This document shows positions 5,685 through 23,204 of a stretch of DNA of 64,000 bases, in pieces. Within the stretch, counting starts at the first letter, position 1, and the number at the start of each line of letters is the position of its first letter. The stretch spans positions 62,001-126,000 of the forward strand of contig NZ_JOFX01000001.1 of assembly GCF_000719345.1 (NCBI RefSeq), read 5' to 3'. The notes below the pieces were generated by a model. That model ran no database searches, was not told where the DNA came from, and worked only from the letters and a program-made list of their open reading frames with translations. A program made the position numbers and the translations under genes. Source of the stretch: Streptomyces sp. NRRL F-2664 (GTDB taxonomy: Bacteria; Actinomycetota; Actinomycetes; Streptomycetales; Streptomycetaceae).

Positions 5685-6266
5685 TCAGACCAGGTCGCGA
5701 CGTACGATCCAGCGGTGCCGCTTGTCGCTCTTGGCCTCGGTGCGCAGGATCCGGCGGAAGCCGGCCCGCTCGAACATGTCCATCGTGCCGACGTAGGCGA
5801 GGGTCGGGTTCACCCGGCCGCCCTCGGGATCCACCGGATACCCCTCGACGGCGGGCGCGCCGTTCGCCCGCGCGTGCTCGACGGCCCCCTCCAGCAGACC
5901 GGAGGCGACCCCCTTGCCGCGGAATTCCTTGCGCACGACGAAACAGGTCACCGACCACACGGGCACGTCGTCGACGGGCGTGATCGTCTTCGACGAGGTC
6001 AACCGGTCGAGCTGGCGGCGCGGCGCCACGTTGCACCAGCCGGCGACCTCCCCGTCCAGGAACCCGAGGACCCCGGGCGGCGGATCGGCCTTCTCCGCCA
6101 GGGTCCGCAGGTGCTCACCGCGCTCCTCCGCGGACATCCTCCCGTAGTCCCCGGTCGTCAGCCGCCACGCCATGCACCAGCACGTGTGCGCGCTCTTCTT
6201 CGGCTGGAGCACCTTCTTGACGTCGTCCCACAGATCCGCCGTGGCCGGCCGGACTTCTAAACTCAT
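5685..6266 (-). CDS. GNAT family N-acetyltransferase
   Basis: 193 residues with a GNAT core: [17 protein letters not shown] is beta4 plus the acetyl-CoA loop (R-G-K-G-V-A), followed by the helix [14 protein letters not shown] tryptophan- and cysteine-rich N-terminal part (HTCWCMAW) is typical of a streptomycete subgroup annotated only as GNAT. The start overlaps the threonine aldolase stop by four bases, so it is the last gene of the minus-strand operon. The acceptor is unknown; tailoring or self-protection in the NRPS cluster and a house-keeping role are both possible. Confidence 0.9.
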
Positions 6267-7363
6267 GCTGCTACTTCGCTCTCTTCCGCTTCTTGCTTTC
6301 GCCCCGCGGGCACGCCCTCACGCGCACCAGCGACGACATCGGTCATAACGGCGGTCAGCACCTCCAGGGCGCGCCGACACGCCTCGCGTCCTGCGTCCAT
6401 ATGGGTGACCAGCCGGACGGTGTCCGGGTCCGGCGCGGTCACCAGCACTCCTTCCCGTGCGGCCCGGGCGACGACCTCGTCGGCGCCCGGCACCCCGACG
6501 AGGACGATGTTGGTCTCGGGCGGGCGCACGGGGAAGCCCGCCTCCCGCAGCCCCGCCGCCAGCAGCGCGGCGTGTTCGTGGTCCTCGGCGATCCGCTCCA
6601 CGTGGTGGTCCAGGGCGTACAGCCCCGCAGCCGCCAGGATGCCCGACTGGCGCATCCCGCCGCCCAGGCCGTGCCGCAGCTTGCGCGCACGGGGCAGGTG
6701 TTCGGCCCGCAGCAGCAGCACCGAGCCGACCGGCGCGCCGAGCCCCTTCGACAGGCACACCGACAGCGAGTCGGCCGTCTCCCCGTACCGCTCCGCCGCG
6801 GTTCCGGTCGCGGCCATGGCGTTCCAGATGCGGGCACCGTCCATGTGGACGGCAACGCCCGCGCCGGCCGCCAGGGCGCGCACCGCCCGCAGCGTCTCCA
6901 GCGGATGGACGGTGCCGCCGGCGCGGGTGTGGGTCTGCTCCACCTCCACCGCGCGCGTGCCCAGGGTGTACGGGTTCCCCCGCCGGAGCACCCGCGCCAG
7001 CAGGGCCGGGGTGATCACCCCCCGTTCGGCCGTCACCGTACGGGTCTGGATGCCGCCGTAGCGGGCCGGGGAAGCCTCCTCATGGGCGAGGACGTGCGCC
7101 TCCGCGTCGCACACCAGCTCCTCGCCGGGACCGACGAGGAGCTGGAGCGCGATCTGGTTGGCCATCACTCCGGACGGCGTGAACAGCGCCGCCGGGAAGC
7201 CGAAGAGCGCCGCGAGGCGCTCCTCCAGGGCGCGTACGGTCGGGTCCTCCCCGAAGAGGTCGTCGCCGACCTCCGCGTCGGCCATCGCGGCCCGCATCGC
7301 GGGACCCGGCCGGGTCACCGTGTCGCTGCGCAGATCGGCGACCGTGCATCCGGCTGTGCTCAT
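6263..7363 (-). CDS. Low-specificity L-threonine aldolase family PLP enzyme
   Basis: 366 residues, fold type I. The N-terminal [10 protein letters not shown] motif and GDDLFGEDP are hallmarks of LtaE/GLY1 aldolases. [10 protein letters not shown] carries the PLP-binding Asp, and [14 protein letters not shown] holds the Schiff-base lysine (about K206). The family splits L-threonine or other beta-hydroxy amino acids to glycine and an aldehyde, or runs the reverse. It overlaps both neighbours by four bases. Inside an NRPS operon next to an SHMT-like enzyme it may supply or recycle a beta-hydroxy amino acid, which is inference. A second, only distantly similar aldolase lies at 46630-47691. Confidence 0.93.
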
Positions 7364-8049
7364 GACGGATCGTCAACTCCTCGTTCACGCGGCCGCGGGG
7401 TGAGCCCACGGGCCGCCATCCAGTCCAGCAGCGGCCGTACCAGCAGCCAGGTCTCCCGTACGAGCTCCCCGGCGCGTGCCGTGTGCAGACCCGCGGCCGG
7501 ACCGTAGCGGCGCCCCGCGTCGATCTTGCGGTGGCGCAGCAGGTCCAGCCGGGGGTGGTCCGCGGGCACCCCCCGCGGCCGGGACCTGAGCCGGTCCCCG
7601 CCGATGACGAAGCCCTGCTCCGCCAGCCGGCCGGTGAGCGCCGCCAGTTCCGTGCCGCCGTCCTCCTCCTCGACGGCGGCACGGTAGCGGGCGACCTCGG
7701 CCCCGGCGTACGGGTACCAGCGGCCGGAGGCGTACAGCCCGTCCCGGTCCAGGTGCACCCACAGTCCCAGACAGGGCAGCAGGTCCAGATAGGCGCCCTG
7801 GTAGGTCTTGTACGGGGACTTGTCGTGGGACATCCGGGTGTCGCGGACCGGGCCGAGCACCTGCACCCCGGCCGGTCCGGCCCACTCCGCGAAGAACGTG
7901 CCCAGTTCAGCGGCCAGCTCGTCCATCGGCGCACGCACGTCGCGCTCGTACCGCTCGCGGTGGCGCAGCCGCCACGCCTCCTTGCTGTTGTCGGCCGCGA
8001 GGTCCTCGTACAGGCGCAGTGCCGAGGGCGGGAAGCCGCTGAAGGTCAC
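7360..8049 (-). CDS. DUF2461 family protein
   Basis: 229 residues from a GTG start at 8049. [17 protein letters not shown] at the N-terminus and [16 protein letters not shown] in the middle are the family's typical segments. The function of DUF2461 is not known. It sits between the SHMT-like gene and the threonine aldolase with GTGA overlaps at both ends, so it is translated with them. The overlap with the upstream stop decides the start; the frame stays open far upstream but has no reason to be used there. Confidence 0.88.
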
Positions 8050-9446
8050 GGCAGGTACCCCGGCAGGGGGTGGGCGGCGCACAGCTCCGACACCCGGGCG
8101 CGGACCCGGTCGCGCAACACGTCCGGGAGCACGCCGCCGGGCGCGGCGAGCGCCGTGAGGACGTCCGCGACCAGGTCGGCGCACTCGGCGGCCACCGTCC
8201 GGTCCATCCCGCGGGCGGCCAGCGTGTTCGTGCCCAGCCGCAGCCCGCCCGTCACCCGGACCGGCGTGGTGTCCCCGGGGACGCGGTTGCGGTTGACGAC
8301 GATCCCGCAGGACTCCAGGGCCTCCTCGGCCACGTCCCCGGTGACGCCGGTGCCGCGCAGGTCGAGCAGCACCATGTGGGTGTCCGTACCGCCCGTGACC
8401 AGCCGGAAGCCCCGGTCCAGGAGGCGCTCGGCGATCGCCTGCGCACCGTCGGCCAGCCGTTTGGCCACCTCGGCGAAGTCCGGGCTGGCCACGAAGTCCA
8501 GGGCGCGGGCCTTGGCCGCCACCGACGCCAGGTCGGGGGTGCCCTGGGTGAAGGGGAACACCGCCCGGCGCAGGGTCGCGGCCAGGGTGCCGCGCTCCGG
8601 CCCCGCCCTGCGGGCCTCGCGGCCCAGCAGGATCAGTCCGCCGCGCGGGCCGTACAGCTGCTTGTAGGTGCTGGTGGTGGTCACGTGGGCGTGGTCGACC
8701 GGACTCTGGTGGAGGCCGGCCGCGACCAGGCCCGCGATGTGCGAGATGTCCGCGAGGAGGTAGGCGTTGGCCTCGTCCGCGATCTCCCGGAACCGGGCGA
8801 AGTCGATGCTGCGGGGGTACGCGCTCGCCCCGCACACGATCAGCTTCGGCCGGTGCTCCAGCGCCAGTTCACGGATCTGGTCGTAGTCGAGCAGCCCCTC
8901 CGGCGTCACCCGGTAGCCGTGGGCGCGGTAGTAGCGGCCGGTCACCGAGGCGGGGGAGCCGTGGGTGAGGTGCCCGCCGCAGTCCAGGTCGAGGCCGAGC
9001 AGGCTGTCACCCGGGCTGAGCAGGGCCGTGATCACGGCGAGGTTCGCGGACGACCCGGAGTGCGGCTGCACGATCGCGTCCTGCGCCCCGAAGGCCGCGC
9101 ACGCCCGCTCGATCGCGAGGCGTTCGATGTCGTCGGCGACGCCGCACCCCGCGTGGTAGCGGTTGCCGGGATACCCCTCGGCGGTCAGGTTCCCCAGCGC
9201 ACTGCCCTCGCAGGCCAGCACGGAGGGGTCCGCGACGCTGGACGCCGCGACCATCATCAGGGTGTCGCGCTGGCGCGCCGACTCCCGCGCCAGCAGGTCG
9301 TACAGGACGGAGTCGCGGTCTCTGAGCCGGGTGTTGGCGTGCGCGGCGAAATCGACCAGGTCCGGTGCGGGCACCCGGGGTGCGCCGCCCGGCCGTCCGT
9401 TCCCGTCCGGAGGACCGGTGACGGGCGCGGGCAGGGTGAGACTCAT
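8046..9446 (-). CDS. Serine hydroxymethyltransferase-like PLP enzyme (possible beta-hydroxy amino acid aldolase/transaldolase)
   Basis: 466 residues. SHMT signatures are SALGNLTAEGYPGNRYHAG, LLADISHIAGLVAAG with the PLP-binding Asp, and TTTSTYKQLYGPRGG with the internal aldimine lysine (K262). Ordinary SHMT has His before that lysine (TTTTHK); here it is Tyr261. A short N-terminal extension rich in Gly and Pro is also present. Known SHMT relatives in antibiotic clusters act as L-threonine transaldolases or alpha-methylserine enzymes, so this copy may not be the folate-dependent house-keeping enzyme. It lies 54 bases after the Cy-A-PCP synthetase and is coupled to DUF2461 downstream. Calling it plain glyA would be unsafe. 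Confidence 0.9.
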   Translation of the reverse strand: MSLTLPAPVTGPPDGNGRPGGAPRVPAPDLVDFAAHANTRLRDRDSVLYDLLARESARQRDTLMMVAASSVADPSVLACEGSALGNLTAEGYPGNRYHAGCGVADDIERLAIERACAAFGAQDAIVQPHSGSSANLAVITALLSPGDSLLGLDLDCGGHLTHGSPASVTGRYYRAHGYRVTPEGLLDYDQIRELALEHRPKLIVCGASAYPRSIDFARFREIADEANAYLLADISHIAGLVAAGLHQSPVDHAHVTTTSTYKQLYGPRGGLILLGREARRAGPERGTLAATLRRAVFPFTQGTPDLASVAAKARALDFVASPDFAEVAKRLADGAQAIAERLLDRGFRLVTGGTDTHMVLLDLRGTGVTGDVAEEALESCGIVVNRNRVPGDTTPVRVTGGLRLGTNTLAARGMDRTVAAECADLVADVLTALAAPGGVLPDVLRDRVRARVSELCAAHPLPGYLP

Positions 9447-9500: not shown

Positions 9501-12500
9501 TCAGTCCTCGGCATCGGCGGTGTCCGTCTCCTCGGCCTCCAGCTCGCCGAACGCCTCGGCGGCCGCGACCGCCTCCGCACCGTGCTGCTCGTCCGCGGCG
9601 ATCTTTCCGGCCAGGTCGCGGACCACCGGGTTCTGGAACACGGTCTTGACCGGCACCGGCACCCCGAGCAGCTCCTTGAGCAGTCCGGCCAGCCGGGTCC
9701 CGCTGAGCGAGTCGCCGCCCAGGGTGAAGAAGTTGTCACCGGGCGCCACCCCGTCCAGGCCGAGGATGTCCGCGACCGCCGCGCACAGCACCAGCTCCAG
9801 CGCGCTGCCGGTCGCCTCCCCGCCGTCGGGTGCGGCCGCGTCGTCGGCGGACTGCCGGCTCCCGGCGGAGGAGGCCAGCAGCAGCCGGTCGACCTTGCCG
9901 TTGCGGGTCAGCGGCAGTTCGTCGAGCGCGGTGATCGCGGCGGGCACCATGTAGCCGGGGAGCTGCGCGGCGAGCCGCTCCAGCACCCGGTCGGCGGCGC
10001 CGGCGTCCGACCCGGCGTCGGCCACCACGTAGGCGTGCAGCCGCCGCACCCCGTGGGCGCTGGCGGGGGCCACGACCACGGCCGCCTCGACCTCGTCGTC
10101 CTGGCGCAGCACGGCCTCGATCTCGCCCAGTTCGATCCGGTGCCCCTGGATCTTGACCTGGAAGTCGTCCCGGCCCAGGATCTCGATGCTGCCGTCCGGC
10201 AGGTACCGGCCCAGGTCGCCGGTCAGGTAGGCGCGTTCGCCGGTCTCCGGGAGGCGCACGAAGCGGCTCGCCGTGCGCTCGGCGTCGTTCCAGTAGCCGA
10301 GCGCGAGGCCGACGTCGCTGGCCACGGCCATCTCGCCGACGACGCCGAGCGGGCGCTCGTGGGCCGTCCGGTCGACGATGTAGTAGCGCTGGTTCGTGAT
10401 CGGCTTGCCGTAGGGGATGCTCGTCCACGACGGGTCGACCTCGCCGATCGGCTGGAAGAGCGACCAGCAGATCGTCTCGGTCGGACCGCCCGAGCCCACC
10501 ACCTGGATCCGCGGGCTCTGCGCCCGCAGCCGGTCCGGCAGGGTCAGCGGGATCCAGTCGCCGGAGAGCACCGACAGCCGCAGGGACTCCAGCGGCCGGC
10601 CGGCCCCCCGCCGGTCGCGCACCTCGGCCTCGCCGACGAGCAGTTCCATCAGCACGGGTACGGAGTTCCACAGCGTGACCCGCTCCGTCTGCACCAGGTC
10701 GGCCCACACGTCGGGCTCGGCGTGCTCGAACGGCGGCGGCACCACCACGGTCCCGCCCTGGGTGAGCACCCCGAAGACGTCGTAGATCGAGGCGTCGAAG
10801 TGCAGCCCCGAGATGGCCAGCAGCCGGTCCCGCTCGTCGACCCCGAAGCGGTCGGCGACGTCGCGGATCAGGTTGACCACGCCGATGTGGTCGACCATCA
10901 CGCCCTTCGGCTCGCCCGTCGAGCCCGAGGTGAAGATCGTGTACGCGAGGTCCGCGGGGGTCTGCGCGGTGTCGGGCCGGGTCGCGGTGCCGGTCTCGAA
11001 GTCCTTGTCCACCCGGTAGCGGCGGGCCGTGGGCGGCCAGCTGACCCGGGACTCCAGCGAGGACTGCGTGAGGATCCGGTCCACCTTGGCCTCGGCCAGC
11101 AGCCGGCGCAGCCGCTCCGGCGGCACGGACGCGTCCAGCGGCAGGTAGGCGGCACCGGACGCGAGGATGCCGTACACCGCTGCGTACTGCTCCCAGCCCT
11201 TCTCCATCACCACGGCCACCAGCTCGCCCGGCGCCGCCCCGTGCTCGCGCAGCGTGTGCCCGATCCGCCAGGCGTAGGCGGCCAGTTCGGCGTAGCTGAG
11301 CCGCCGCCGGGAGTCCACCACGGCCTCGGCGTCCGGCGTGAGCTCCGCCTGCCGGGCGAACAGCTCGTGCAGGGTGGTGTACGGGATCTGCCCGGCCGTG
11401 TCGTTGACCTGCCGGCGCAGCTCCCGCTCGGCCGGCGGGACCAGGTCGAAGCGCGGGGTGTGCAGGCTGTCCGGATCGTCGGTGAGCCTGGTCAGGAGGT
11501 CCACGTACACGCCGAAGGCGGCGTCGACGAAGCCGGGCGCGAACGCGCCGTCGACGAAGTCCCAGATGACGCGGAGCTCACCGGCCAGCTCCCGCAGCTG
11601 CACGTCGAGGGTCACCTGCGGGGTCTGCGAGATCGAGTACACCTCCCGGCCCAGGTCCGTGACGGGCCGGCGCACCGGGTAGTCGAGCAGGCTGGTGACG
11701 ACCACGGGCATCCCGGCCTGCGCACCCACGCCGTGCAGGCGAGTCAACTCCCGCAGTACGCGGACGCCGTTGAAGGAGCCGTGCTCGACATCGCGGGCCA
11801 GCTGGTCGCGCAGGGCGTGCGCGCGGTCCAGGAAGGTCGCGCCCGAGCCGTCGGCGGCGAGCATCACCGCGTTGGTGAAGTCGCCGAGCACGCCGGTGAT
11901 GTCCGGGTGCACCGCGGGGCGCTGGAAGACCGGGTAGTTGATCGTGAAGTCGGACTCCTCCGCCCAGGCCCGCACCACTTCGGCGAAGGCCGCGGTGAGC
12001 AGCAACGACGGGGTCAGGCCCGCCCCGTGCGCCCGCTCGGTGAACCGCTGCCAGTCCGCGGGGGAGAGGCGGTGCTCACGCCGGTCGAAGCGGACCTCGC
12101 CGGTGTCGCCGCCGGCACCGCCCGTGGGCAGCGACGGGGCCGGCGGCAGCGTGGGCACGCGCTGCACCCAGTAGTCGCGGGCGGCCCGGAAGGCTTCGGT
12201 GTGCGGCAGGGCGTCGGCGCGCCAGCGGGCGTACTCGGCAAAATTGATGCCGGGCTCGGGGAGTTCGGCATCGGGGTTCTCGTACAGGTCGACCAGCTCC
12301 GGGAAGAGCACCTGGAAGGCGCTGGAGGCATCCAGCACCTGGAGGTCGATGCCCAGGTGGACCCGGCCGAGGTCCTCCGGACCGCCCAGCCGGAATATCC
12401 GCAGGTCGAACAGCGGCCAGCTGCCGACCGGGAAGACCACGTGGCTCATCTCCTCGCGCACCGCGGCGAGGTGCTCCCGGGCGGCGTCCGCGGACAGGTG

Positions 12501-12788
12501 GCGCAGGTCCACGACCGGGATCTCGAACGGCAGCGGGTCGGCGGGCACCCACTGGGTGCCGTCCGTCCTGCCGATCGCGCGGAGCATGTCGTGGCGGGCG
12601 ACCACCGTGCGCCAGGCGGTCGCGAACCGTTCCGGGTCGAGGTCCGCGCGCTCCCACTCGAAATATCCGTAGCAGCCGATGCCGCCCATCTCGACGGCTT
12701 CGCCTCGCCCGATCATCAGTGCCTGCTGCGTCTCGGTCATCGGGAAGGACGCGGCACTGTCCGCGCGAGCGGGCAGGAGCTCGGTCAT
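9501..12788 (-). CDS. Nonribosomal peptide synthetase, Cy-A-PCP module
   Basis: 1095 residues. The N-terminal domain has FPMTETQQALMIGR and DLQVLDASS, which fits the DxxxxDxxS motif of heterocyclisation (Cy) domains rather than HHxxxDG. The A domain follows, with TIFTSGSTGEPKG, GSGGPTETICWS, YLTGDLGRYLPDG and NGKVDR. Pocket residues by eye are D-A-Y-N-V-S-S-C-W-K, closest to the cysteine code D-L-Y-N-L-S-L-I-W-K but changed at four places. The carrier site is NFFTLGGDS near residue 1030, and an acidic tail closes the protein. Cy domains condense and cyclise Cys, Ser or Thr to thiazoline or oxazoline rings. No oxidase or thioesterase domain is present. Confidence 0.94.
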   Translation of the reverse strand: MTELLPARADSAASFPMTETQQALMIGRGEAVEMGGIGCYGYFEWERADLDPERFATAWRTVVARHDMLRAIGRTDGTQWVPADPLPFEIPVVDLRHLSADAAREHLAAVREEMSHVVFPVGSWPLFDLRIFRLGGPEDLGRVHLGIDLQVLDASSAFQVLFPELVDLYENPDAELPEPGINFAEYARWRADALPHTEAFRAARDYWVQRVPTLPPAPSLPTGGAGGDTGEVRFDRREHRLSPADWQRFTERAHGAGLTPSLLLTAAFAEVVRAWAEESDFTINYPVFQRPAVHPDITGVLGDFTNAVMLAADGSGATFLDRAHALRDQLARDVEHGSFNGVRVLRELTRLHGVGAQAGMPVVVTSLLDYPVRRPVTDLGREVYSISQTPQVTLDVQLRELAGELRVIWDFVDGAFAPGFVDAAFGVYVDLLTRLTDDPDSLHTPRFDLVPPAERELRRQVNDTAGQIPYTTLHELFARQAELTPDAEAVVDSRRRLSYAELAAYAWRIGHTLREHGAAPGELVAVVMEKGWEQYAAVYGILASGAAYLPLDASVPPERLRRLLAEAKVDRILTQSSLESRVSWPPTARRYRVDKDFETGTATRPDTAQTPADLAYTIFTSGSTGEPKGVMVDHIGVVNLIRDVADRFGVDERDRLLAISGLHFDASIYDVFGVLTQGGTVVVPPPFEHAEPDVWADLVQTERVTLWNSVPVLMELLVGEAEVRDRRGAGRPLESLRLSVLSGDWIPLTLPDRLRAQSPRIQVVGSGGPTETICWSLFQPIGEVDPSWTSIPYGKPITNQRYYIVDRTAHERPLGVVGEMAVASDVGLALGYWNDAERTASRFVRLPETGERAYLTGDLGRYLPDGSIEILGRDDFQVKIQGHRIELGEIEAVLRQDDEVEAAVVVAPASAHGVRRLHAYVVADAGSDAGAADRVLERLAAQLPGYMVPAAITALDELPLTRNGKVDRLLLASSAGSRQSADDAAAPDGGEATGSALELVLCAAVADILGLDGVAPGDNFFTLGGDSLSGTRLAGLLKELLGVPVPVKTVFQNPVVRDLAGKIAADEQHGAEAVAAAEAFGELEAEETDTADAED

Positions 12789-12879: not shown

Positions 12880-14766
12880 CTAGGGGCGGTGAGTTAGCCG
12901 CCGGTTACGCTCCGGACGGCCGGTCCGCTCGGCGGGTACCGCCGCGCGTCCCTCCTCCAGGGAGAGCGCGAAGAGCCGGACGAGCGGGTGGAACAGGTAG
13001 CAGGGCTGGCCCCACTCGTCCGCGCCGCTGACCTCCAGCAGGGCGGCGTCGGCGAGCGCCTCCAGCAGCCGCTCGGCCTCGGCCTCCGGCAGGTCCAGCG
13101 CCGTCGCCGCCTCGGCTGCCGGGAACGGATCCGGGCCGAGCGCGGCCAGCTCCGGGAACACCGCCCGCACCTCCGGCTCCAGTGCGCGCCAGGAGGGCAG
13201 CAGGGAGGTGTGCACGTCCATGTCGCCGGAGTGCAGTTCCCGCAGCCGGGTCACGGGGTCGGCCAGCCTGCGGGCGAGCCGGTCGGGCGTGCAGTGCGGC
13301 CGGGCCGCGATCCGTGTACCGACGATCCGCAGCGCCAGCGGCAGCCCGGCGCAGTGCTCGACGATCGCGGACGCCGCGCGCGGGGCCGCCGCCACCCGGG
13401 AGGGACCGGCCGCCGCGGCGAGCAGCTCCAGGGAGGCCCGCGGCTCCAGGGGCGCGAGGGCCACCGTGTGCGCCCCGGCCACCGTAGGCAGGGCCGTACG
13501 CCCCGTCACCAGCACGGCCGGCTCGGGGGTGTTGGGCAGCAGCGGACCGAGCTGGGCCGCCCCGGAGGCGTTGTCCAGCACGATGAGCAGCTGCCGTCCC
13601 CGGGTCCGCTCCCGGTACAGGCGCACCAGCTGGTCCTGGTCGTCGGCGGCCGGTACGTCGTCCATCGGGCCCAGCGCCCGCAGCAGCCGGCGCAGTACCC
13701 GGGCCGGGTGCCGCGGAGTGCCGTCCGCGGCGCGCAGGTCGGCGTACAACTGGCCGTCGGGGAAATGCCGCTGGCAGCGGTGCGCCGCGTGGACGGCCAG
13801 CGCGGTCTTCCCCAGCCCCGCCATGCCGGTGACCAGGACCCGGCGGGGCCGTCCGGCACCCTGCCCGTCGGGGGCCAGGGCCCGGCACACCAGCTCCAGC
13901 TCCGGCTCCCGCCCGGTGAAGTCGACGGTGTCCGGGGGCAGCATGGCCGGGGTCCCGTCCGAGGGGCCCGAGGCCCGCGGCCGCGCGCCCGCCCGTACGG
14001 CGGGGGCGGAGCCCGGCCACCGGTCGAGTGTGCCGTCCAGCAGCGCCCGGTAGGTGGCCTGGAGTTCCTCGCCGGGATTGACCCCCAGTTCGTCCGCGAG
14101 CACCGCCCGGCCGTGGTGGTAGAGGTGGATCGCGTCCGCCTGCCGCCCCGACCGGCACAGGGCGGTCATCAGCTGGCAGCGGATGCGCTCGCGCAGTGGG
14201 AACTCCGCCACGAGCCCGGTGAGTTCGCCGGTGAGCTGCTCGTGCCGGCCGAGGGCGAGGTCCGCGGCGATGCGGTGCTCCAGGGTCACGGCCCGCGCCT
14301 CCGTCAGTCGCGGGGCCTCTGCGTCGGCGAGGTATTCGGTGGCGTTCGCGAACGGCTGGCCGTTCCACCGGGCCAGGGCGTCGCGCAGCAGCTCACCGGC
14401 CTTTTCGAAGTCCTCTTTGATCAGTGCCTCGCGGCCGCCGAGTGCCAGCTTCTCGAATTCGTTCAGGTCGACGGTCGCATTACCGATGCTCATGGCATAT
14501 CCCGGCGGTCTGCGATCGATCGTCACGTCGGCGCCCAGAATCTTGCGCAGGCGCGAAATATAGGTGTAGAGCTGTGCGCTGACGGTCGCGGGGGGCGCCC
14601 AGCCCCACAGCAACCGGCACAGCCGCTCGTCCGACACCACTTCCCCGCGGGCCAGGAGGAGCGCCGCGAGCACGGTGTGCAGCTTCGCCCCGGAGAACGC
14701 GACCCGGTGGCCGTCCCGCCGTACCTCTACTGGCCCGAGCACTCGGAATTCCATGTACCGCCCCAT
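12880..14766 (-). CDS. AfsR/SARP family transcriptional regulator with NB-ARC domain, no TPR tail
   Basis: About 628 residues from ATG at 14766, chosen because AGGA lies seven bases upstream; a second ATG four codons later is possible. Order of domains: winged-helix OmpR-like DNA-binding domain (FRVLGPVEV, residues 5-95), bacterial transcriptional activation domain (about 100-245), then an NB-ARC-type ATPase with GMAGLGKTALA near residue 315 and a following winged-helix region. It stops before the TPR array that full AfsR has. It lies 91 bases upstream of the Cy-A-PCP gene on the same strand, so it is the likely pathway activator of that operon. Confidence 0.92.
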   Translation of the reverse strand: MGRYMEFRVLGPVEVRRDGHRVAFSGAKLHTVLAALLLARGEVVSDERLCRLLWGWAPPATVSAQLYTYISRLRKILGADVTIDRRPPGYAMSIGNATVDLNEFEKLALGGREALIKEDFEKAGELLRDALARWNGQPFANATEYLADAEAPRLTEARAVTLEHRIAADLALGRHEQLTGELTGLVAEFPLRERIRCQLMTALCRSGRQADAIHLYHHGRAVLADELGVNPGEELQATYRALLDGTLDRWPGSAPAVRAGARPRASGPSDGTPAMLPPDTVDFTGREPELELVCRALAPDGQGAGRPRRVLVTGMAGLGKTALAVHAAHRCQRHFPDGQLYADLRAADGTPRHPARVLRRLLRALGPMDDVPAADDQDQLVRLYRERTRGRQLLIVLDNASGAAQLGPLLPNTPEPAVLVTGRTALPTVAGAHTVALAPLEPRASLELLAAAAGPSRVAAAPRAASAIVEHCAGLPLALRIVGTRIAARPHCTPDRLARRLADPVTRLRELHSGDMDVHTSLLPSWRALEPEVRAVFPELAALGPDPFPAAEAATALDLPEAEAERLLEALADAALLEVSGADEWGQPCYLFHPLVRLFALSLEEGRAAVPAERTGRPERNRRLTHRP

Positions 14767-14786
14767 CCGTGATTCCTGAGAAGAAT

Positions 14787-14844
14787 CTTCGAACGAAGCT
14801 AGAGGAGGTCGTTGTCCCCTCGATATCGTGTCGATTTCGAGGGG
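14787..14844. promoter_or_regulatory. Inverted repeats in the SARP / DMPWG peptide divergent promoter
   Basis: Two inverted repeats lie between the divergent starts. CTTCG-AA-CGAAG is at 14787-14798. CCCCTCGA (14816-14823) pairs perfectly with TCGAGGGG (14837-14844) across 13 bases. They are good operator candidates, but the binding protein is unknown. Confidence 0.5.
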
Positions 14845-14953
14845 GGCCTGGGTCACGAAATCGATGGAACACGGAAGAGAAAGGAGGCGTCCCTACTGTT
14901 CCATTCGTGCCGCAGCGAGCGGCAGTGATGATCCATCGAGAGGGGAATCCGAG

Positions 14954-15160
14954 ATGCGCAGCACCCGGACGGCGAAGAAGACGGCCGCTTGCCTGGTTGT
15001 CCTTGCGGGGATGTTCGTGGGCACGGGGGCCGTGTCGGCCGTCACGGCGCAGGGGGGCACCAGCGTCCAGGCGGACGACATGCCCTGGGGGATCGTCAAG
15101 CCGCTGCACCCCTCCCCGTCCGGCTCCGCCGGCACGAACGGCGACATGCCCTGGGGCTGA
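14954..15160 (+). CDS. Small secreted peptide with duplicated DMPWG motif
   Basis: 68 residues from ATG at 14954, with GAGAGGGGA about eight bases upstream. The N-terminus is a textbook signal peptide: basic MRSTRTAKK, a hydrophobic stretch to about residue 27, and small residues before a likely cut near VTA/QGG. The mature part would be about 36-40 residues, rich in Gly, Ser and Pro. It contains ADDMPWG in the middle and NGDMPWG as the last residues. A 15-base DNA repeat (15076-15090 and 15142-15156) underlies the motif. No Cys is left after cleavage. It is transcribed away from one SARP gene and towards the end of a TPR-type SARP. No family recognised; a secreted signal or a modified-peptide precursor are the main possibilities. 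Confidence 0.75.
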   Translation: MRSTRTAKKTAACLVVLAGMFVGTGAVSAVTAQGGTSVQADDMPWGIVKPLHPSPSGSAGTNGDMPWG

Positions 15161-15391: not shown

Positions 15392-18300
15392 TCAGTTCGC
15401 CGGATGCGCCAGCAGCTCCGTCAGTTCCTCCGGAGTGAAGGAACGATGCGGCAGCCCTCCGGGACCCCCACCGCCCGGTACGTCCCCCGCATCCCGTACG
15501 GCCGCCAGCAGCCGGCCCGCCTGCACCCGCCAGGGCTGCGCGCCGACCTCACCGAAGGCGGCACAGGCCCGCCGGAACCTCTCCGCCGCCTCCGCACACC
15601 GGCCCCCGAGCGCATCCACGCACCCGAGGTCCGTCTCCACCCGGGCGTACAGGAACCGGTCCGCCAGTTCGACGGTGATCTCCAGGGCCTGCTGCAGCGT
15701 GTCCCCCGACGCCTGCAGCAGGCCCTGGCTCCACTGCGTCTGCCCCAGACCCCGCAGCGCGTGGGCCTCACCGACCCGGTCGCCCTCGCCGCGGGTCAGG
15801 CGCAGCACCGCGCCGAACGCCTCGGCCGCCTCGCCGTAGCCCCCCGCGCGCAGCCGCACCTCGGCCAGCCGGTACACGCTCTGGGCCTCCGCCCGTACCG
15901 ATCCGGTACGCCGGCTGAGCGCCACCGCCTGCTCCGCCAGCGGCAGCGCGCCGCCCACGTTGCCCCGGTCCAGTTCGATCTGCGCCTGGAAGCCCAGCAG
16001 ATGGGCCTCGTTGCCGATGTCCCCCGACGCATGGAAGCCGCCGAGCGCCGCCTCGCAGTACTCCAGCGCCCGCTCCCAGTCGCCCTGGAACCGTGCGCAC
16101 ATGGCCAGGTTCCGTTGCGCGAGCGCCGCCCCGCCCAGGTCACCCGTGGTGCGCAGCAGCCGCAGCGCGGCCATGTTCCAGCCCTCGGCCTGCTCGTAGC
16201 GCCGCTGGTAGATCGCCAGCGACCCCAGGAGCCGCAGCATGGTCGCCTCGCCGGGCTCGTCACCGGCGCAGCGGGCGGACGCCAGGGCCTGCTCGGCGCT
16301 GCGCTGCCAGTCCTCCAGGTAGTTCTTCGTCTCGAAGTGCGGCACCGCGCTCTCGGTCAGCTTCCAGGCGTAGCCGGCCCGGCCCGTCTCCGCCGCCTGG
16401 GCCACCACGTCGGTCACGGCGGTGCGCTCCGACTCGAACCAGTCCATCGGCGAGCCGAGCAGCTCGTCGGCGAGCTCGCCCAGGAAGCCGGGGGCGGGCG
16501 CGGCCGGCCGGCCCACCGGGAAGTCGCGTCCGTCGATCCGCCGGTGCGCCTCCTCGGCCAGCCAGAGCCACGCGCCGAAGGCCCGCTCCAATGCGGCGTC
16601 CGTCTCGCCCTCCGGCTCGTCCGACTCCGCCCGCTCCCGGGCGAACAGCCGCAGCAGGTCCTGGAAGCGGTAGCGGGCCGCCCGGCCCGGCGCCGACTCC
16701 GCCACCTCCAGCAGCTGGGCGTCGACCAGGTGGTCGATCAGCTCCTCCGCGTGCCACACGCTGGTGTCGAGGACGGCCGCCCCCGCCCAGGCGGCGAAGT
16801 CCGCCGTGCGCAGCAGTCCGAGGCGCCGGTACATCCGGGCCGCCTCCGGCGGCAGGTCCCGGTAGGTGAGGCGGAAGCCGGCGCGCACCCCGCCCTCGCC
16901 CGGGCTCAGAACGTCCAGCCGGGAGCGGTGGTCGCGCAGCCGCTCCACGAGGCTGCGCACGCTCAGGTTGGGTTTGGCCGCGAGCCGGGCGCCGGCGATC
17001 CGCAGCGCCAGCGGCAGGCAGTCGCACAGCGCGCCGAGCTGCTCCACCGCCACCGGGTCACTGCCGAACCGGTCCGCCCCCGCGAGTTTGATCAGCAGGG
17101 CCGTGGCCTCGGTCGGCTCCAGCATCCGCAGCCGGATGCTGAGCGCCGTGTAGTCCCCGGTCAGGTCGCCCAGGTTCTCCCGGCTGGTGGCCAGCACCAC
17201 GCTGCGCCCACCGCCGGGCAGCAGGGGTCTGAGCTGCTGGAAGGAGCGTACGTTGTCCAGGAGGATCAGGGTTTTGCGGGTGCTGAGCAGGCTCCGGAAC
17301 AGCGCCGCCCGCTCATCGGGATCGACCGGTACCTGCGGTGCGGCTATGCCGAGGGCCCGCAGGAAGCGGTCCAGCACGGCCGCGGGCGACACCGGCGCCT
17401 GCTCCTCGTCGTAGCCGCGCAGATCGGCGAAGAGCTGGCCGTCGGGGAACTGGTCCGCCACCTGGCTCGCCCAGTGCACCGCCAGTGCCGTCTTGCCCAC
17501 CCCGCCCACGCCCACGATCGTCGCCAGGGCCGGGGTGTGCGGGTGGTACGGCTCCTTCAGCAGCCGGTCCAGCGAGGCCATCTCGCGCTGCCGGCCGGTG
17601 AACGCCATGACCTGCGCCGGGAGTTGCGCCGGGACGGTGTGCAGGGCGGTCGGCGCGGGGGTGGCCACGGCCGGGGGCCGGGTCAGCTCCGGCGAGTCGC
17701 GCAGGATCAGGTCGTGCAACTGCCGCAGCCCCGGACCCGGTTCGATCCCGAGCTGCTCGGTGAGTAAGCGGCGGCCGGCCAGGAACACGTCGAGGGCCTC
17801 GGCCCGCTGGCCCGACCGGTAGAGGGCCAGCATGAGGTGCTCACGGCACTGCTCGCGCAGTGGATGCCGGGCCACCAGGTCGGTGAGCTCGCCGATGAGC
17901 GCGCGGTGCCGGCCGAGCTGGAGCATCAGCCCCGCCCGCTCCTCCATGAGCGTGAGCCTCATCTGCTCCAGCCGCGTCGCCTCGGCCTCCAGCCGGGAGC
18001 CGGGCGTCTCGTCGAGGGCCGAGCCCCGCCAGATGCTCAGCGCCTCCTCGAACAGCGTGCAGGCCTCCTCGGTGCGGCCGTGCCGGGCGGCGTCGCGGCC
18101 CTGCTCGGCGCGCTCCAGGAACTCCTGGACGTCGACGCGGTGCTCGCCCTTGGCCAGCAGGTAGCCCGGGGGAGAGGTGATCAGCAGGTCGGTCACGCCG
18201 GCCTGCTTGAAGGTCTTGCGCAGGGTGGCCACGCAGATGGCGATCTGGTTGCGGGCCGTCGCGGGAGGCGAATCCGGCCAGACGGCGTCCACCAGGGTGT

Positions 18301-18436
18301 CCACCGAGACGACCCGGTCGGCATAGAGCACCAGCATCGCGAGGACCGTCGCCTGGCGCCTGCCGTTGATGCGCAAGGGGCCGTCCTCGGCCTGGACGAG
18401 CAGTGGCCCCAGCAGTCTGAAGACAAACCGATTCAC
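15392..18436 (-). CDS. AfsR-type SARP regulator with NB-ARC and TPR domains
   Basis: About 1014 residues from GTG at 18436, which has GGGGGA six bases upstream. Domains: winged-helix DNA-binding (FRLLGPLLVQ, about 5-95), BTAD (about 100-250), NB-ARC ATPase with VGVGGVGKTALA near residue 308 and ILLDNVRS as Walker B, then helical TPR-like repeats from about residue 690 to 980. The layout is that of AfsR, a pleiotropic activator of antibiotic production. The TPR region could receive a peptide or protein signal, and a secreted peptide gene lies just beyond its 3' end. Whether it controls the NRPS operons is inference. Confidence 0.93.
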   Translation of the reverse strand: MNRFVFRLLGPLLVQAEDGPLRINGRRQATVLAMLVLYADRVVSVDTLVDAVWPDSPPATARNQIAICVATLRKTFKQAGVTDLLITSPPGYLLAKGEHRVDVQEFLERAEQGRDAARHGRTEEACTLFEEALSIWRGSALDETPGSRLEAEATRLEQMRLTLMEERAGLMLQLGRHRALIGELTDLVARHPLREQCREHLMLALYRSGQRAEALDVFLAGRRLLTEQLGIEPGPGLRQLHDLILRDSPELTRPPAVATPAPTALHTVPAQLPAQVMAFTGRQREMASLDRLLKEPYHPHTPALATIVGVGGVGKTALAVHWASQVADQFPDGQLFADLRGYDEEQAPVSPAAVLDRFLRALGIAAPQVPVDPDERAALFRSLLSTRKTLILLDNVRSFQQLRPLLPGGGRSVVLATSRENLGDLTGDYTALSIRLRMLEPTEATALLIKLAGADRFGSDPVAVEQLGALCDCLPLALRIAGARLAAKPNLSVRSLVERLRDHRSRLDVLSPGEGGVRAGFRLTYRDLPPEAARMYRRLGLLRTADFAAWAGAAVLDTSVWHAEELIDHLVDAQLLEVAESAPGRAARYRFQDLLRLFARERAESDEPEGETDAALERAFGAWLWLAEEAHRRIDGRDFPVGRPAAPAPGFLGELADELLGSPMDWFESERTAVTDVVAQAAETGRAGYAWKLTESAVPHFETKNYLEDWQRSAEQALASARCAGDEPGEATMLRLLGSLAIYQRRYEQAEGWNMAALRLLRTTGDLGGAALAQRNLAMCARFQGDWERALEYCEAALGGFHASGDIGNEAHLLGFQAQIELDRGNVGGALPLAEQAVALSRRTGSVRAEAQSVYRLAEVRLRAGGYGEAAEAFGAVLRLTRGEGDRVGEAHALRGLGQTQWSQGLLQASGDTLQQALEITVELADRFLYARVETDLGCVDALGGRCAEAAERFRRACAAFGEVGAQPWRVQAGRLLAAVRDAGDVPGGGGPGGLPHRSFTPEELTELLAHPAN

Positions 18437-19405: not shown

Positions 19406-20917
19406 GTGAAGAGGATGTTCGTGGCTCCGGATCCGGGGCGTCTGCGGCTGAGGACCTCGGTCCGCGCGGTGATCGGCGTCGGCGCCGCCGTCGCCCTCGC
19501 CGAACTGTGCGGTCTCTCCCTGACCGCCTCCATCACCGGCGGCCTGGCAGCGCTGCTCGCGCTGTTCACCGTCACCGACCCCACTGTGCGCCGCCAGGCC
19601 GTCACCACCGCCCTGCTGCCCGCCGCCGGGTTCCCGGTACTGGCCCTGGCCACCGCCCTGCACGGGGTGACCCCGCTGCGCGACGCCGCCTTCGTCCTCG
19701 TCGTCTTCTGCGGGGTCTACGCCCGACGCTGGGGCCCGCGCGGCCACGCACTCGGGATCTTCGCGTTCATGAACTTCTTCGTGACGCAGTTCCTCCATGC
19801 CCTCCCGGCCCAGCTCCCCGAGCTCTACGCCGCCGTCGGCCTGGCCCTGGCCGCGTCGGCCGCGGTGCGCTTCCTGCTCTGGCCCATCGAGCGGCGCACC
19901 CCGCCGCCCGCCGCCCCCGCACCGCTGCCCGGCCGCGGCCTGGCCCGGCACACCACCCGCCAGGCCTTCCAGGCGACTGCCGCCTGCGCCGTCGCCCTCG
20001 CCGTCGGCCAGGTGCTGTCCGAGGACCGCTGGTACTGGGCCGTGGGCACCGCCTGGTGGATCTTCGTCAACACCGCCTCCCGCGGCGAGACGCTGGTCCG
20101 CGGCTTCCGCCGGGTGCTGGGCACCGTCGTCGGCGTCGCCGCCGGCGTACTGATCGCCATCCCGTTGGACGGCGCACCCCTTCCCACCGCCCTCCTGGTC
20201 GCGGCCTGCGTCTTCGGCATCTTCTACACGGCCGCCGTCTCCTACAGCTGGATGATCCTCGCGGTCACGCTGATGGCCGGGCTGCTCTACGGCCTCCTCG
20301 GCGTGCTGGACCCCGGCCTGCTCGTGCTGCGCCTGGAGGAGACGGCGGTCGGCGCCGTGTGCGCCGCGCTGGCCGTGGTCCTCGTCCTGCCCGTCACCAC
20401 CCACGCCACCAACGACGCCTGGATCCAGCGCGCGCTGCACTGCGTGCACGCGGCCACCGCCCAGGCCGCCGCCCGACTCGCCGGCTCCGCGACGGCGGAT
20501 CCCGCCCCGCACGCCGCCGAGCTGGAGACCCTGCTGGCCCGCGTCCGGACGGCCCTCGCCCCGCTGGTCCACCCGCTCAGCCCGTTCCGGGCCCGTAAGG
20601 CGCGCGCCGGCCAGGTCATCGCCCTGCTGGACGACTGCGCCCGCGAGGTGCGCGGCCTGGTGGCCGTCGCCGCCGACCCGGACGCCGGCCACGACGCCCG
20701 CCTCGCCGCCGCCTGCTGGCGCGTCGAGGCCGCCGTACAGGCGCTCACCGCGGGCGAGCGGGAGCTCGAAGGACCTCGGGCGGCGCACCCCGCCGCCCCG
20801 CCCGCCGGCACCGCCGAGCCCGCGCTCGCCCACCTCCAGGGCCTCGAACGGGCCCTCACCCAGCTGGCCACCCCGCTGGGCACCGACCCGAAGGCGCCGT
20901 TCGTCATCAGCGCCTGA
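19406..20917 (+). CDS. FUSC family (aromatic acid exporter-like) membrane protein
   Basis: About 503 residues from GTG at 19406 (ATG at 19415 is equally possible). Two membrane halves are visible: hydrophobic segments between about residues 10 and 165, a linker, then a second set from about 180 to 340 that includes ALAVGQVLSEDRWYWAVGTA, the fusaric-acid-resistance core. The C-terminal 160 residues are soluble and helical. Relatives such as AaeB export aromatic acids; the substrate here is unknown. The divergent MarR gene suggests substrate-induced expression. Its 3' end overlaps the convergent helicase gene by 11 bases. Confidence 0.88.
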   Translation: MKRMFVAPDPGRLRLRTSVRAVIGVGAAVALAELCGLSLTASITGGLAALLALFTVTDPTVRRQAVTTALLPAAGFPVLALATALHGVTPLRDAAFVLVVFCGVYARRWGPRGHALGIFAFMNFFVTQFLHALPAQLPELYAAVGLALAASAAVRFLLWPIERRTPPPAAPAPLPGRGLARHTTRQAFQATAACAVALAVGQVLSEDRWYWAVGTAWWIFVNTASRGETLVRGFRRVLGTVVGVAAGVLIAIPLDGAPLPTALLVAACVFGIFYTAAVSYSWMILAVTLMAGLLYGLLGVLDPGLLVLRLEETAVGAVCAALAVVLVLPVTTHATNDAWIQRALHCVHAATAQAAARLAGSATADPAPHAAELETLLARVRTALAPLVHPLSPFRARKARAGQVIALLDDCAREVRGLVAVAADPDAGHDARLAAACWRVEAAVQALTAGERELEGPRAAHPAAPPAGTAEPALAHLQGLERALTQLATPLGTDPKAPFVISA

Positions 20918-23204
20918 GCAGCGCACCCCACCCGGCCGCCGGTCCCTCCGGCGGCCGGCCGGGGGTGTGCACCACCCCCAGCGCCTGGGTGGCCCGGGTC
21001 AGCGCCACGTAGAGGTCGCTCGGCCCGAACTCGCCCGGCTCCACCACGATCACCGTGTCGAACTCCAGCCCCTTGGCCTGCCGCGGATCCAGCAGCACCA
21101 CCTCCCGGGTCAGATCGGGCTCGGCGCCCTCCCGTACCCCCGGCAGCACGCCGGTCAGCGCCGCATGCCGCTCCCGCCGCGCGATCACCGCGAGCCGCCC
21201 CTCCGCCGGCCGGTCCCGCTCCACGGCCTCCGCGACCGCTGCGGCGAGGTCCTCGGCCGCCCGCGCCCACGGCCGCACCCCGGTGGACCGCACCGAGCGC
21301 GGCGGCTCGAACCCCGGGTCGCGCTCGCGCAGCACGGCCGCCGCCACCGCCATGATCTCGGCCGGCGTGCGGTAGTTGACCCCGAGCCGGACCAGCTCCC
21401 AGCGGTCGCCCACGTACGGCGCCAGGATCCGCTCCCAGGAACCGCAGCCCGCCTCGTCACCGGTCTGCGCGGGATCGCCGACCAGCGTCATCGAACGGGT
21501 CGGGCAGCGCCGCATCAGCAGCCGCCACGCCATCTCCGACAGCTCCTGCGCCTCGTCCACGATCACGTGCCCGAACGCCCAGGTGCGGTCCTGCGCGGCG
21601 CGCTCGGCGGTACTGCGGTGGTCGGCCTCCTCATGGCGTTCCGCCATCCGCTCCGCATCGATGATGTCGTGGGCCGCGAGGTACTCGTTCTCCTCGTCCT
21701 CGAACTCGTACGACTGCGAGCCCGCCGAGACGTCCAGCACGCCCTGCGCGTACGCGATGCGCCGCCGGCGCTGCCGCTCCTCGGCGGCGCGCAGCGCACT
21801 GTCGTCCTCCCCGAGCAGCTCGGCCGCCTCGTCCAGCAGCGGCACGTCGGCCGGGGTCCAGTCGGGCCGGGCCGAGCGCGCGCGCCGGATGAGCCGGGCC
21901 TCGTCCGGGGGCAGGTGCGTGGGCTCCGCCAGGAAGTCCGCGATCAGCCGCTGCGGGGTGAGGGAGGGCCAGAGCGAGTCGATGGCGGCGTGCACGGCCC
22001 GGCTCGTCGCGATCTCCTTGCCGAGCTGGGCGACGTCGTCCGGCCCCAGCAGGTTGGGTCCGCCGTACGGATCGGCGCCGAGCCGGTCCGCCAGCTGCGC
22101 GGTGAGCGCGTCGATGACGGCGAAGGCGAAGGCCGGACGCGCCTGGTTGTGCGGCAGCCCGGTGGCCCGGGCCCGGTCGCGTGCCTCGTGGGCCATCGTG
22201 CGGTCCAGCCGCAGGGTCCCGTGGTCGTCGTGGTCAATCTCCAGCGCGGGCTCCGGGACGGTGTCGTACTCCTCGCCCGTGTCGGCCGGCACCTCCTCCG
22301 GCAGGCGCTGCCGGTCGGCCACGACGCGGGCGAGGACCCGCGCCATCGAGGCGCGGCCCTTCACCGCGGCGGCCCCCGGGCGGTCGGTGCCGGTGGCGTG
22401 GACGCCGGGGAACAGCTCGCCCGGCGTGGACAGCAGCACGCCCGTCTCGCCGAGCGCCGGGAGCACTCCGCCGATGTAGCCGAGGAAGGCCGGCCCCGGC
22501 CCCACGATCAGCACCCCGCGCCTGGCGAGCAGCTCGCGGTGGGCGTACAGCAGGTATGCGGCGCGGTGCAGCGCGACCGCGGTCTTGCCGGTGCCCGGCC
22601 CGCCCTCGACGACCAGCACCCCCCGGTGCGTGGAGCGGATGACCCGGTCCTGCTCGGCCTGGATGGTGCGCACGATGTCGTGCATGCGGCCGGTCCGGGC
22701 GGCGTCCAGGGCGGCCAGCAGCACCGCGTCCGCGTCGGCGCCCTCGTGGCCGGTGCGCTCCGCGTCGGTCAGGTCGAGGATCTCGTCGTGCAGGGCGGTG
22801 ACCACCCGGCCGCGGCTGCTGATGTGCCGGCGGCGCCGCAGCCCCATCGGGGTGTGGCCGGTGGCGAGGTAGAAGGGGCGGGCGACCTCGGCCCGCCAGT
22901 CCAGGACCAGCGGTGTGCGGTCCGCGTCGTCGGCGCGGATCCCGATGCGGCCGATGTGGTGGTCGGCGCCGTCGGAGAACTCCAGGCGCCCGAAACACAG
23001 GCCGTTCTCCCCGGCGTTCAGGGCGGACAGCAGACCGGACTGCTCGGCCACCAGGACATCGCGCTCCAAGCGCGCCTGGAAGCCCGTCCCCACGTCCCGC
23101 AAAGCCCCTTCGACCGCCTGTTCGGCCTGGTCGCGCAGGTCGTCGAGGCGCCGATAGAGGTCGGTGACGAATTGCTGCTCTTTTCGGAATTCCTCGGTTG
23201 ACAA
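20907..23204 (-). CDS. HelD-like UvrD/Rep-family helicase (RNA polymerase-recycling type)
   Basis: 765 residues from a TTG start with GGGAG five bases upstream. An N-terminal coiled coil (about 1-60, FRKEQQFVTDLYRRLDDLRD) precedes Walker A EGGPGTGKTAVALHRAAYLL near residue 200, the Walker B-like FGHVIVDEAQELSEMAW and the motif LVGDPAQTGD, then RLGVNYRTP and VALTRATQALGVVH near the C-terminus. The layout matches actinobacterial HelD, which pulls stalled RNA polymerase off DNA and in some species (HelR) protects against rifamycins. I found no rifamycin-associated inverted repeat upstream, so drug induction is not supported by the sequence. Confidence 0.9.
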   Translation of the reverse strand: MSTEEFRKEQQFVTDLYRRLDDLRDQAEQAVEGALRDVGTGFQARLERDVLVAEQSGLLSALNAGENGLCFGRLEFSDGADHHIGRIGIRADDADRTPLVLDWRAEVARPFYLATGHTPMGLRRRRHISSRGRVVTALHDEILDLTDAERTGHEGADADAVLLAALDAARTGRMHDIVRTIQAEQDRVIRSTHRGVLVVEGGPGTGKTAVALHRAAYLLYAHRELLARRGVLIVGPGPAFLGYIGGVLPALGETGVLLSTPGELFPGVHATGTDRPGAAAVKGRASMARVLARVVADRQRLPEEVPADTGEEYDTVPEPALEIDHDDHGTLRLDRTMAHEARDRARATGLPHNQARPAFAFAVIDALTAQLADRLGADPYGGPNLLGPDDVAQLGKEIATSRAVHAAIDSLWPSLTPQRLIADFLAEPTHLPPDEARLIRRARSARPDWTPADVPLLDEAAELLGEDDSALRAAEERQRRRRIAYAQGVLDVSAGSQSYEFEDEENEYLAAHDIIDAERMAERHEEADHRSTAERAAQDRTWAFGHVIVDEAQELSEMAWRLLMRRCPTRSMTLVGDPAQTGDEAGCGSWERILAPYVGDRWELVRLGVNYRTPAEIMAVAAAVLRERDPGFEPPRSVRSTGVRPWARAAEDLAAAVAEAVERDRPAEGRLAVIARRERHAALTGVLPGVREGAEPDLTREVVLLDPRQAKGLEFDTVIVVEPGEFGPSDLYVALTRATQALGVVHTPGRPPEGPAAGWGALLRR

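Follow-up and report, generated by a model that had tools for sequence, protein, structure and literature searches.

A short ORF lying between two SARP genes of Streptomyces sp. NRRL F-2664 encodes an exported-type peptide whose repeated DMPWG motif is maintained by selection, and peptides of similar build with motifs of their own are found beside non-orthologous SARP-TPR genes. The best explanation, which we regard as on balance probable, is a Phr-like system in which the DMPWG peptide would be exported, re-imported and sensed by the adjacent SARP-TPR protein. All coordinates refer to the window, that is, the whole 64,000-nucleotide stretch of DNA that was analysed.

A protein-coding gene with a selected motif

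The ORF and its parts are located as follows:

14954-15160, + strand: peptide precursor ORF of 68 amino acids with DMPWG twice (translation, homologs, alignments, codon test)
14954-15046, + strand: putative Sec-type signal sequence, approximately residues 1-31, with an estimated end (own hydropathy rule)
15077-15091, + strand: internal DMPWG, residues 42-46 (translation, alignments, codon test)
15143-15157, + strand: C-terminal DMPWG, residues 64-68 (translation, alignments, codon test)

The translation of 68 residues opens with a basic N-terminus followed by a hydrophobic stretch, and its second DMPWG ends directly at the TGA stop codon; a candidate ribosome-binding site, GAGAGGGG, lies immediately 5' of the ORF. 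The peptide, with its signal-like start, passes our own hydropathy rule for export. Searches of approximately 5.8 billion proteins returned 21 homologs with the single sequence and 43 with a profile, and all those with an organism name are from Streptomyces; none of the NCBIfam families matched the peptide. A sequence-only reading of this DNA had pointed to the signal-like start and to the two copies of DMPWG, one of them exactly C-terminal. Both are seen in the translation, and the motif arrangement is invariant across the family: at least two unaltered copies, one forming the exact C-terminus, occur in 44 of 44 proteins (the 43 homologs plus the query, P0001), the signal, linker and length being the variable parts. 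Copy number ranges from two to five per protein, with five in the 120-residue P0035 (named S. subrutilus).

Codon alignments of 16 genomic copies revealed no amino-acid change in any of the 10 motif columns as compared with 45 of 54 other columns (Fisher p 6e-7), while synonymous variation is present in 4 of the 10 DMPWG columns; it is therefore the protein motif that selection keeps, and 14954-15160 is a real protein-coding gene. The shortness of the ORF and the conservation of the surrounding DNA might otherwise suggest a chance ORF or a regulatory RNA rather than a protein, but such a reading is next to impossible in view of this codon pattern and of a second family of like build (DLPWT, below) that likewise keeps its own motif.

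The flanking SARPs and the three-gene module

The neighbours of the peptide gene are:

15392-18436, - strand: large SARP-TPR of 1014 amino acids with BTAD, NB-ARC and TPR, the proposed receptor (start by ortholog alignment)
15512-16366, - strand: TPR region of the large SARP, residues 691-975, the proposed peptide-binding domain (domain search, structure model)
12880-14751, - strand: medium SARP with BTAD and NB-ARC, without a TPR match (domain search; start by ortholog alignment)
14752-14953, no strand: divergent promoter region of the medium SARP and the peptide gene, conserved in 16 loci (aligned part 14764-14953)

Two flanking SARP genes, the larger with a TPR half, had been read from the letters, and domain searches bear this out, with BTAD and NB-ARC in both products and TPR in that of 15392-18436 only. 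The large SARP carries Trans_reg_C together with BTAD, its TPR_12 match has an E-value of 2.7e-21, and its top PDB matches are the AfsR chains 8k60 and 8jke. It has the SARP domain, the NB-ARC, the TPRs and the length of about 1000 amino acids that mark the AfsR-type class of large SARPs, following the definition in the available text of PMC10972967.

The peptide gene and the medium SARP gene are divergent, and the peptide gene and the SARP-TPR gene converge tail to tail across a gap of 231 bp. Across 15 genomic loci, the SARP-TPR gene adjoins the peptide gene in all 15 and the medium SARP gene does so in 14, while the remaining locus stops at a contig end. The earlier reading had made its proposal depend upon conservation of the ORF and motif beside SARP genes in relatives, and they are present there in 15 of 15 loci.

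By eye, the aligned segment at 14764-14953 holds TCGATAT and TCGATTT 11 bases apart in the present genome, a SARP-box-like arrangement. The same segment, strongly kept across 16 loci, includes a conserved TCCCTACTG stretch.

Association with a tambromycin-type NRPS cluster

To the left of the medium SARP lie genes of an NRPS cluster:

9501-12788, - strand: FmoA3-type NRPS (condensation/cyclisation, AMP-binding and carrier domains), the likely target cluster (domains, PDB match, co-occurrence)
8046-9446, - strand: SHMT-like enzyme of the cluster (domain/family search)
6263-7363, - strand: GntG/threonine-aldolase-like enzyme of the cluster (domain/family search)

The top PDB match of the window's C-A-PCP protein is 6lta, which we take to be FmoA3 of JBIR-34/35. 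Further left, in L047, a Trp-halogenase-like ORF was recognised by eye. A C-A-PCP protein of this kind and an SHMT-like gene link the window to the clusters for tambromycin (BGC0001368) and JBIR-34/35 (fmo), which are described as similar NRPS compounds (PMC9040887), and we assign its cluster to the tambromycin/JBIR-34 type. The tambromycin reference cluster has been reported to comprise 27 genes (PMC8466323). The available portions of PMC8466323 and PMC9040887 make no mention of a SARP or a small peptide in the tambromycin and fmo clusters, whereas the window has both. AZL proteins have been reported in both clusters (PMC9040887), and the ORF at 9767-10798 (+ strand) of L046, left of the window, has an AlkZ-like (HTH_42) look. 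On the other side, 20907-23204 (- strand) of the window encodes a HelR/HelD-like RNA polymerase recycling protein, which scores 704.5 bits against a curated NCBIfam cut-off of 1100.

The peptide profile, with the best 15 candidates scored per genome, matches 11 of 392 Streptomyces genomes, and the first 300 residues of the FmoA3-like protein score above 480 bits in the identical 11 (next match, 262 bits). The DMPWG family is therefore tied to this cluster, although co-occurrence by itself does not point to any one gene as the peptide's partner.

Two simpler searches were set aside. The pattern DxPWG before a stop codon matched 20 of the 392 genomes, and its reversed control matched more; DMPWG accounts for five of the 20, the remainder having TGG in place of a stop or appearing chance-like, and the present genome was missed because its gap is 52 bases. 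The pattern also gave a DHPWG-stop match at G242:C1:1143498-1143548 (L053). Likewise, a peptide search of 100 relatives gave 80 with a match at E <= 1, of which only five fall below 1e-10 and the others are noise.

Exported-type peptides beside other SARP-TPR genes

SARP-TPR relatives were drawn from the matches listed from 41 genomes, and 100 loci together with four of the present genome made up a set of 104. Directly behind several non-orthologous SARP-TPR genes of this set lies a small ORF on the opposite strand, with a signal-like start and a repeated or C-terminal motif. For example, L124 has DLPWT twice beside a SARP-TPR 46% identical to the window's, and L122 has DDPWM/DDPWL/DDPWM beside one that is 51% identical. 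Both loci keep the full three-gene order, with medium SARPs 49% (L124) and 47% (L122) identical to the window's, and G191 repeats this order by ORF layout. Other convergent ORFs carry NTVWE (L128, L129), NTVWD (L141), DDQGPTVIG five times (L169) or related DxxGP forms (L157, L165, L189, L207), and a further peptide ends in DDTPWG (L133, which stops at a contig end). The pairing of peptide and SARP that the sequence-only reading had proposed for a single locus thus recurs with other motifs.

In the protein collection, the DLPWT copies, two or three per protein, are unaltered in 16 of 16 sequences. Since both DMPWG and DLPWT are invariant within their families, each family has its own motif, which differs between families. 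Searches of 219 genomes with the DLPWT and DDPWM peptides found two and three genomes, respectively, the DDPWM motif being visible in its own genome only.

The annotated genes flanking the DxPW modules differ from one to the next while the SARP-TPR stays. The flanks in G016 hold AMP-binding/MbtH, FAD monooxygenase and BBE genes, and those in G006 encode a Trp halogenase, an acyltransferase and an A-PCP-thioesterase protein. The peptide, in other words, follows the SARP-TPR beyond the tambromycin-type cluster and into different neighbourhoods. This bears on the suggestion of an extracellular role, in which the peptide would be an antimicrobial, a protease inhibitor or a product of surface or RiPP-like kind that is found next to the regulators without working with them. 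An exported-type, multi-copy protein with a motif as invariant as a core peptide would suit such a role, which we nevertheless consider improbable: the enzymes change where the SARP-TPR does not, the motif class follows the SARP-TPR clade, and the neighbours that were annotated and are common to the DxPW modules include no modifying enzyme. The idea of a RiPP-like precursor, also raised by the earlier reading, finds no support in the annotated part of these flanks.

Extent and limits of the pairing

How often such peptides accompany SARP-TPR genes was gauged by a single rule, written once examples were known, that sought an exported-type ORF, convergent and no more than 200 bp away. It was satisfied at 13 of 102 SARP-TPR 3' ends (two of the 104 loci, with too little downstream sequence, being omitted) versus 5 of 245 control 3' ends (p 1.4e-4). 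Three of the 13 hits (L160, L181, L204) look false and L210 is unclassified; four real cases (L122, L139, L144, L090) were missed; and the five control hits include two D-motif peptides (L146, L150) with an AfsR gene close by.

A scan for C-terminal repeats in 60 SARP-TPR loci gave two hits, of which L124 is real and the ORF of L141 was judged to be chance. Extended to 104 loci and both strands, the scan returned eight loci, four with a repeated D-motif (L122, L124, L146, L169) and four that are noise-like (L144, L165, L213, L215).

A targeted look at 17 more loci, none of which had yet been assigned a peptide, recovered a motif in three (L139, L144, L090), all within matching clades. L139 and L144 have a GNTVWD peptide with another gene intervening, and it is an aldolase-like ORF that separates it from the SARP-TPR in both. 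The motif was absent from the other 14, which include members of the DxPW (L127), NTVW (L130, L131, L132) and DxxGP (L220) clades, the sister group L123, L125 and L126, and also L137, L166, L216, L217, L089 and L136. At most of the 104 SARP-TPR loci, these scans detected no peptide.

A first look at small ORFs near the present genome's other SARPs found none that was convincing; L090 (G000:C4:87194-95482) was found later. This locus is a second SARP-TPR of the present genome with a convergent exported-type ORF, located approximately 98 bases behind the SARP-TPR stop on the opposite strand and ending in ADDKGPGMPSPYPAP; its motif, ADDKGP, belongs to the DxxGP class.

Motif class and SARP-TPR phylogeny

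A FastTree phylogeny of 101 SARP-TPR proteins accommodates the four labelled groups with three changes, the minimum possible, as compared with a shuffled mean of 11.4, in a test where the classes were set up once the sequences were known, 79 of the 101 rows are unlabelled and near-copies favour clustering. Of 120 proteins, 110 passed the coverage limit, and nine near-identical tambromycin-type sequences among these were omitted. A single branch sets off each of the NTVW, DxxGP and AfsS groups; DxPW, taken alone, needs two changes because L133 falls outside the DxPW clade. Motif class tracks SARP-TPR clade with this one exception.

Clade-specific residues in the TPR domain

Residues invariant among the DxPW SARP-TPRs and absent from their sister group make up 19 of 72 invariant positions in the TPR as compared with 22 of 213 in the other domains (SARP 10/85, NOD 8/94, arm 4/34; p 0.0016), a comparison referred to three peptide-less sister sequences in a fast-diverging domain. 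The 17 DxPW rows consist of 15 of the 16 tambromycin-type sequences (L037 being below the coverage limit) plus L122 and L124. Moreover, with concave positions assigned by the usual TPR numbering, 7 of the 19 clade-specific residues are concave versus 3 of the other 53 (p 0.0024); H892, W902, R932 and C939 are among these clade-specific concave residues. In this exploratory analysis, clade-specific residues thus appear enriched in the TPR of the DxPW clade. The structure model of the large SARP has a mean pLDDT of 56.2 overall and is confident in the TPR only, where blocks of residues 711-960 reach 77-94; paired helices are modelled at residues 687-984.

Proposed peptide signalling

Phr signals are pentapeptides, and the preferred reading here is of a similar kind. 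The ORF would encode a precursor that gives rise to a linear, exported signalling peptide, with DMPWG as its active unit or as the end of that unit. The precursor would presumably leave the cell by the Sec route, be trimmed outside, and re-enter as a trimmed peptide through a peptide importer; no importer or protease gene common to the loci was seen among the genes annotated. Once inside, the DMPWG peptide may bind the TPRs of the neighbouring large SARP and switch this STAND-type activator and, with it, the tambromycin-type NRPS cluster, acting as either an inducer or an inhibitor. STAND proteins are held inactive until an inducer binds, and the inducer of AfsR has been called elusive, according to the available text of PMC10936776; it is this inducer model, combined with the RRNPP-like layout of the locus, that leads to the proposal of DMPWG as an inducer or inhibitor of the SARP-TPR. 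The module of medium SARP, divergent peptide gene and convergent SARP-TPR would then be one of several cognate pairs, each with a fixed motif.

A broader and more tentative reading, plausible although we would not yet bet on it, is that the large SARPs of Actinobacteria read a peptide code, in which each of several clades has a cognate repeat protein that is bound by the TPRs and whose motif has diverged with them. Peptide signals specific to a strain or a cluster would then gate the antibiotic clusters. Its types would be the exported DxPW, NTVW and DxxGP peptides and the intracellular AfsS.

A literature search that covered mainly papers open without subscription gave no account of peptides of this sort next to SARP-TPR genes, and the letters DMPWG appeared in one unrelated paper only. 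The SARP-TPRs would be a new receptor family for peptide/TPR signalling, in a phylum where such signalling is unusual. If the proposal is true, intracellular-receptor peptide signalling of the Phr kind reaches antibiotic control in Streptomyces, and silent clusters might be woken by adding the right short peptide. A cognate peptide beside its regulator also makes the elusive sensing by AfsR-type TPRs testable with a synthetic pentapeptide, and motifs that are fixed per family and changed between families provide inherent specificity controls.

Comparison with known systems

The AfsR-AfsS pair resembles the DMPWG module in having a large SARP with NOD and TPR next to a small protein of uniform repeats. 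AfsR orthologs form a separate clade of the SARP-TPR tree, and in 21 of 25 loci of this clade an AfsS-like uniform-repeat ORF lies just behind the gene on the same strand, with [DN]xH in 19 of the 21. The repeat is uniform per protein and differs between genomes (L088, 2674-2865 on the - strand, and 20 other loci); motifs include DNHAS, DQHAT, DMHAT, NLHIT, DSHQP, DNAMP and others. Downstream of the AfsR-clade gene in L146, a signal-bearing ORF with DDHST three times lies beside an AfsS-like ORF with DDHVT four times; in L150, a signal-bearing ORF with DNHAP is found beside an AfsS-like ORF with DNHAP five times. These pairs hint that exported and intracellular forms may have a common binding partner.

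The same pair, which the sequence-only reading does not bring up, offers the main rival explanation, in which the peptide gene is a SARP target and its repeat protein a downstream effector inside or outside the cell rather than a TPR ligand. In the available text of PMC2267785 and PMC10936776, AfsR activates afsS, whose product of 63 amino acids has three 12-residue repeats thought to be crucial for activity; AfsS is known as a target of AfsR rather than as its ligand. The regularity of AfsS-like ORFs behind AfsR-clade genes and the conserved divergent promoter region common to the peptide gene and the medium SARP fit this explanation, which we judge unlikely yet well worth weighing. The two kinds of peptide differ, however: AfsS-like ORFs are on the SARP's strand, have [DN]xH motifs in most cases and, judged by eye, no signal sequence, whereas DxPW peptides are convergent and have a signal-like start. 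Moreover, the roles of target and ligand are mutually compatible.

With DMPWG read as an exported signal, there is a likeness to the RRNPP systems (Rap-Phr, PlcR-PapR), which also combine an exported-type precursor, a C-terminal motif in multiplied copies and a neighbouring TPR regulator. By the RRNPP criteria in the available text of PMC10075063, the 68-residue ORF is within the propeptide range of 10-100 amino acids, the genes are adjacent (231 bp, within a default spacing of -60 to 400 bp) and the large SARP has TPRs, but its 1014 residues exceed the 250-500 of RRNPP receptors and it has Trans_reg_C plus BTAD in place of an HTH-type DNA-binding domain. Four of the five criteria are matched wholly or partly, with Sec export judged by our crude rule only; because the receptor is too long and its DNA-binding domain is another, the DMPWG/SARP-TPR pair is not an RRNPP member. 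RRNPP systems belong to the Firmicutes, whereas the DMPWG system is from Actinobacteria, where signals are typically small molecules (PMC10075063, in part), has a convergent gene order and would depend on a TPR binding that we infer. Finally, for NosP, the nosiheptide SARP, a response to peptidyl ligands that stem from a precursor peptide has been reported (PMC10972967, in part); its ligand derives from the product's own precursor, whereas DMPWG would come from a dedicated exported repeat peptide.
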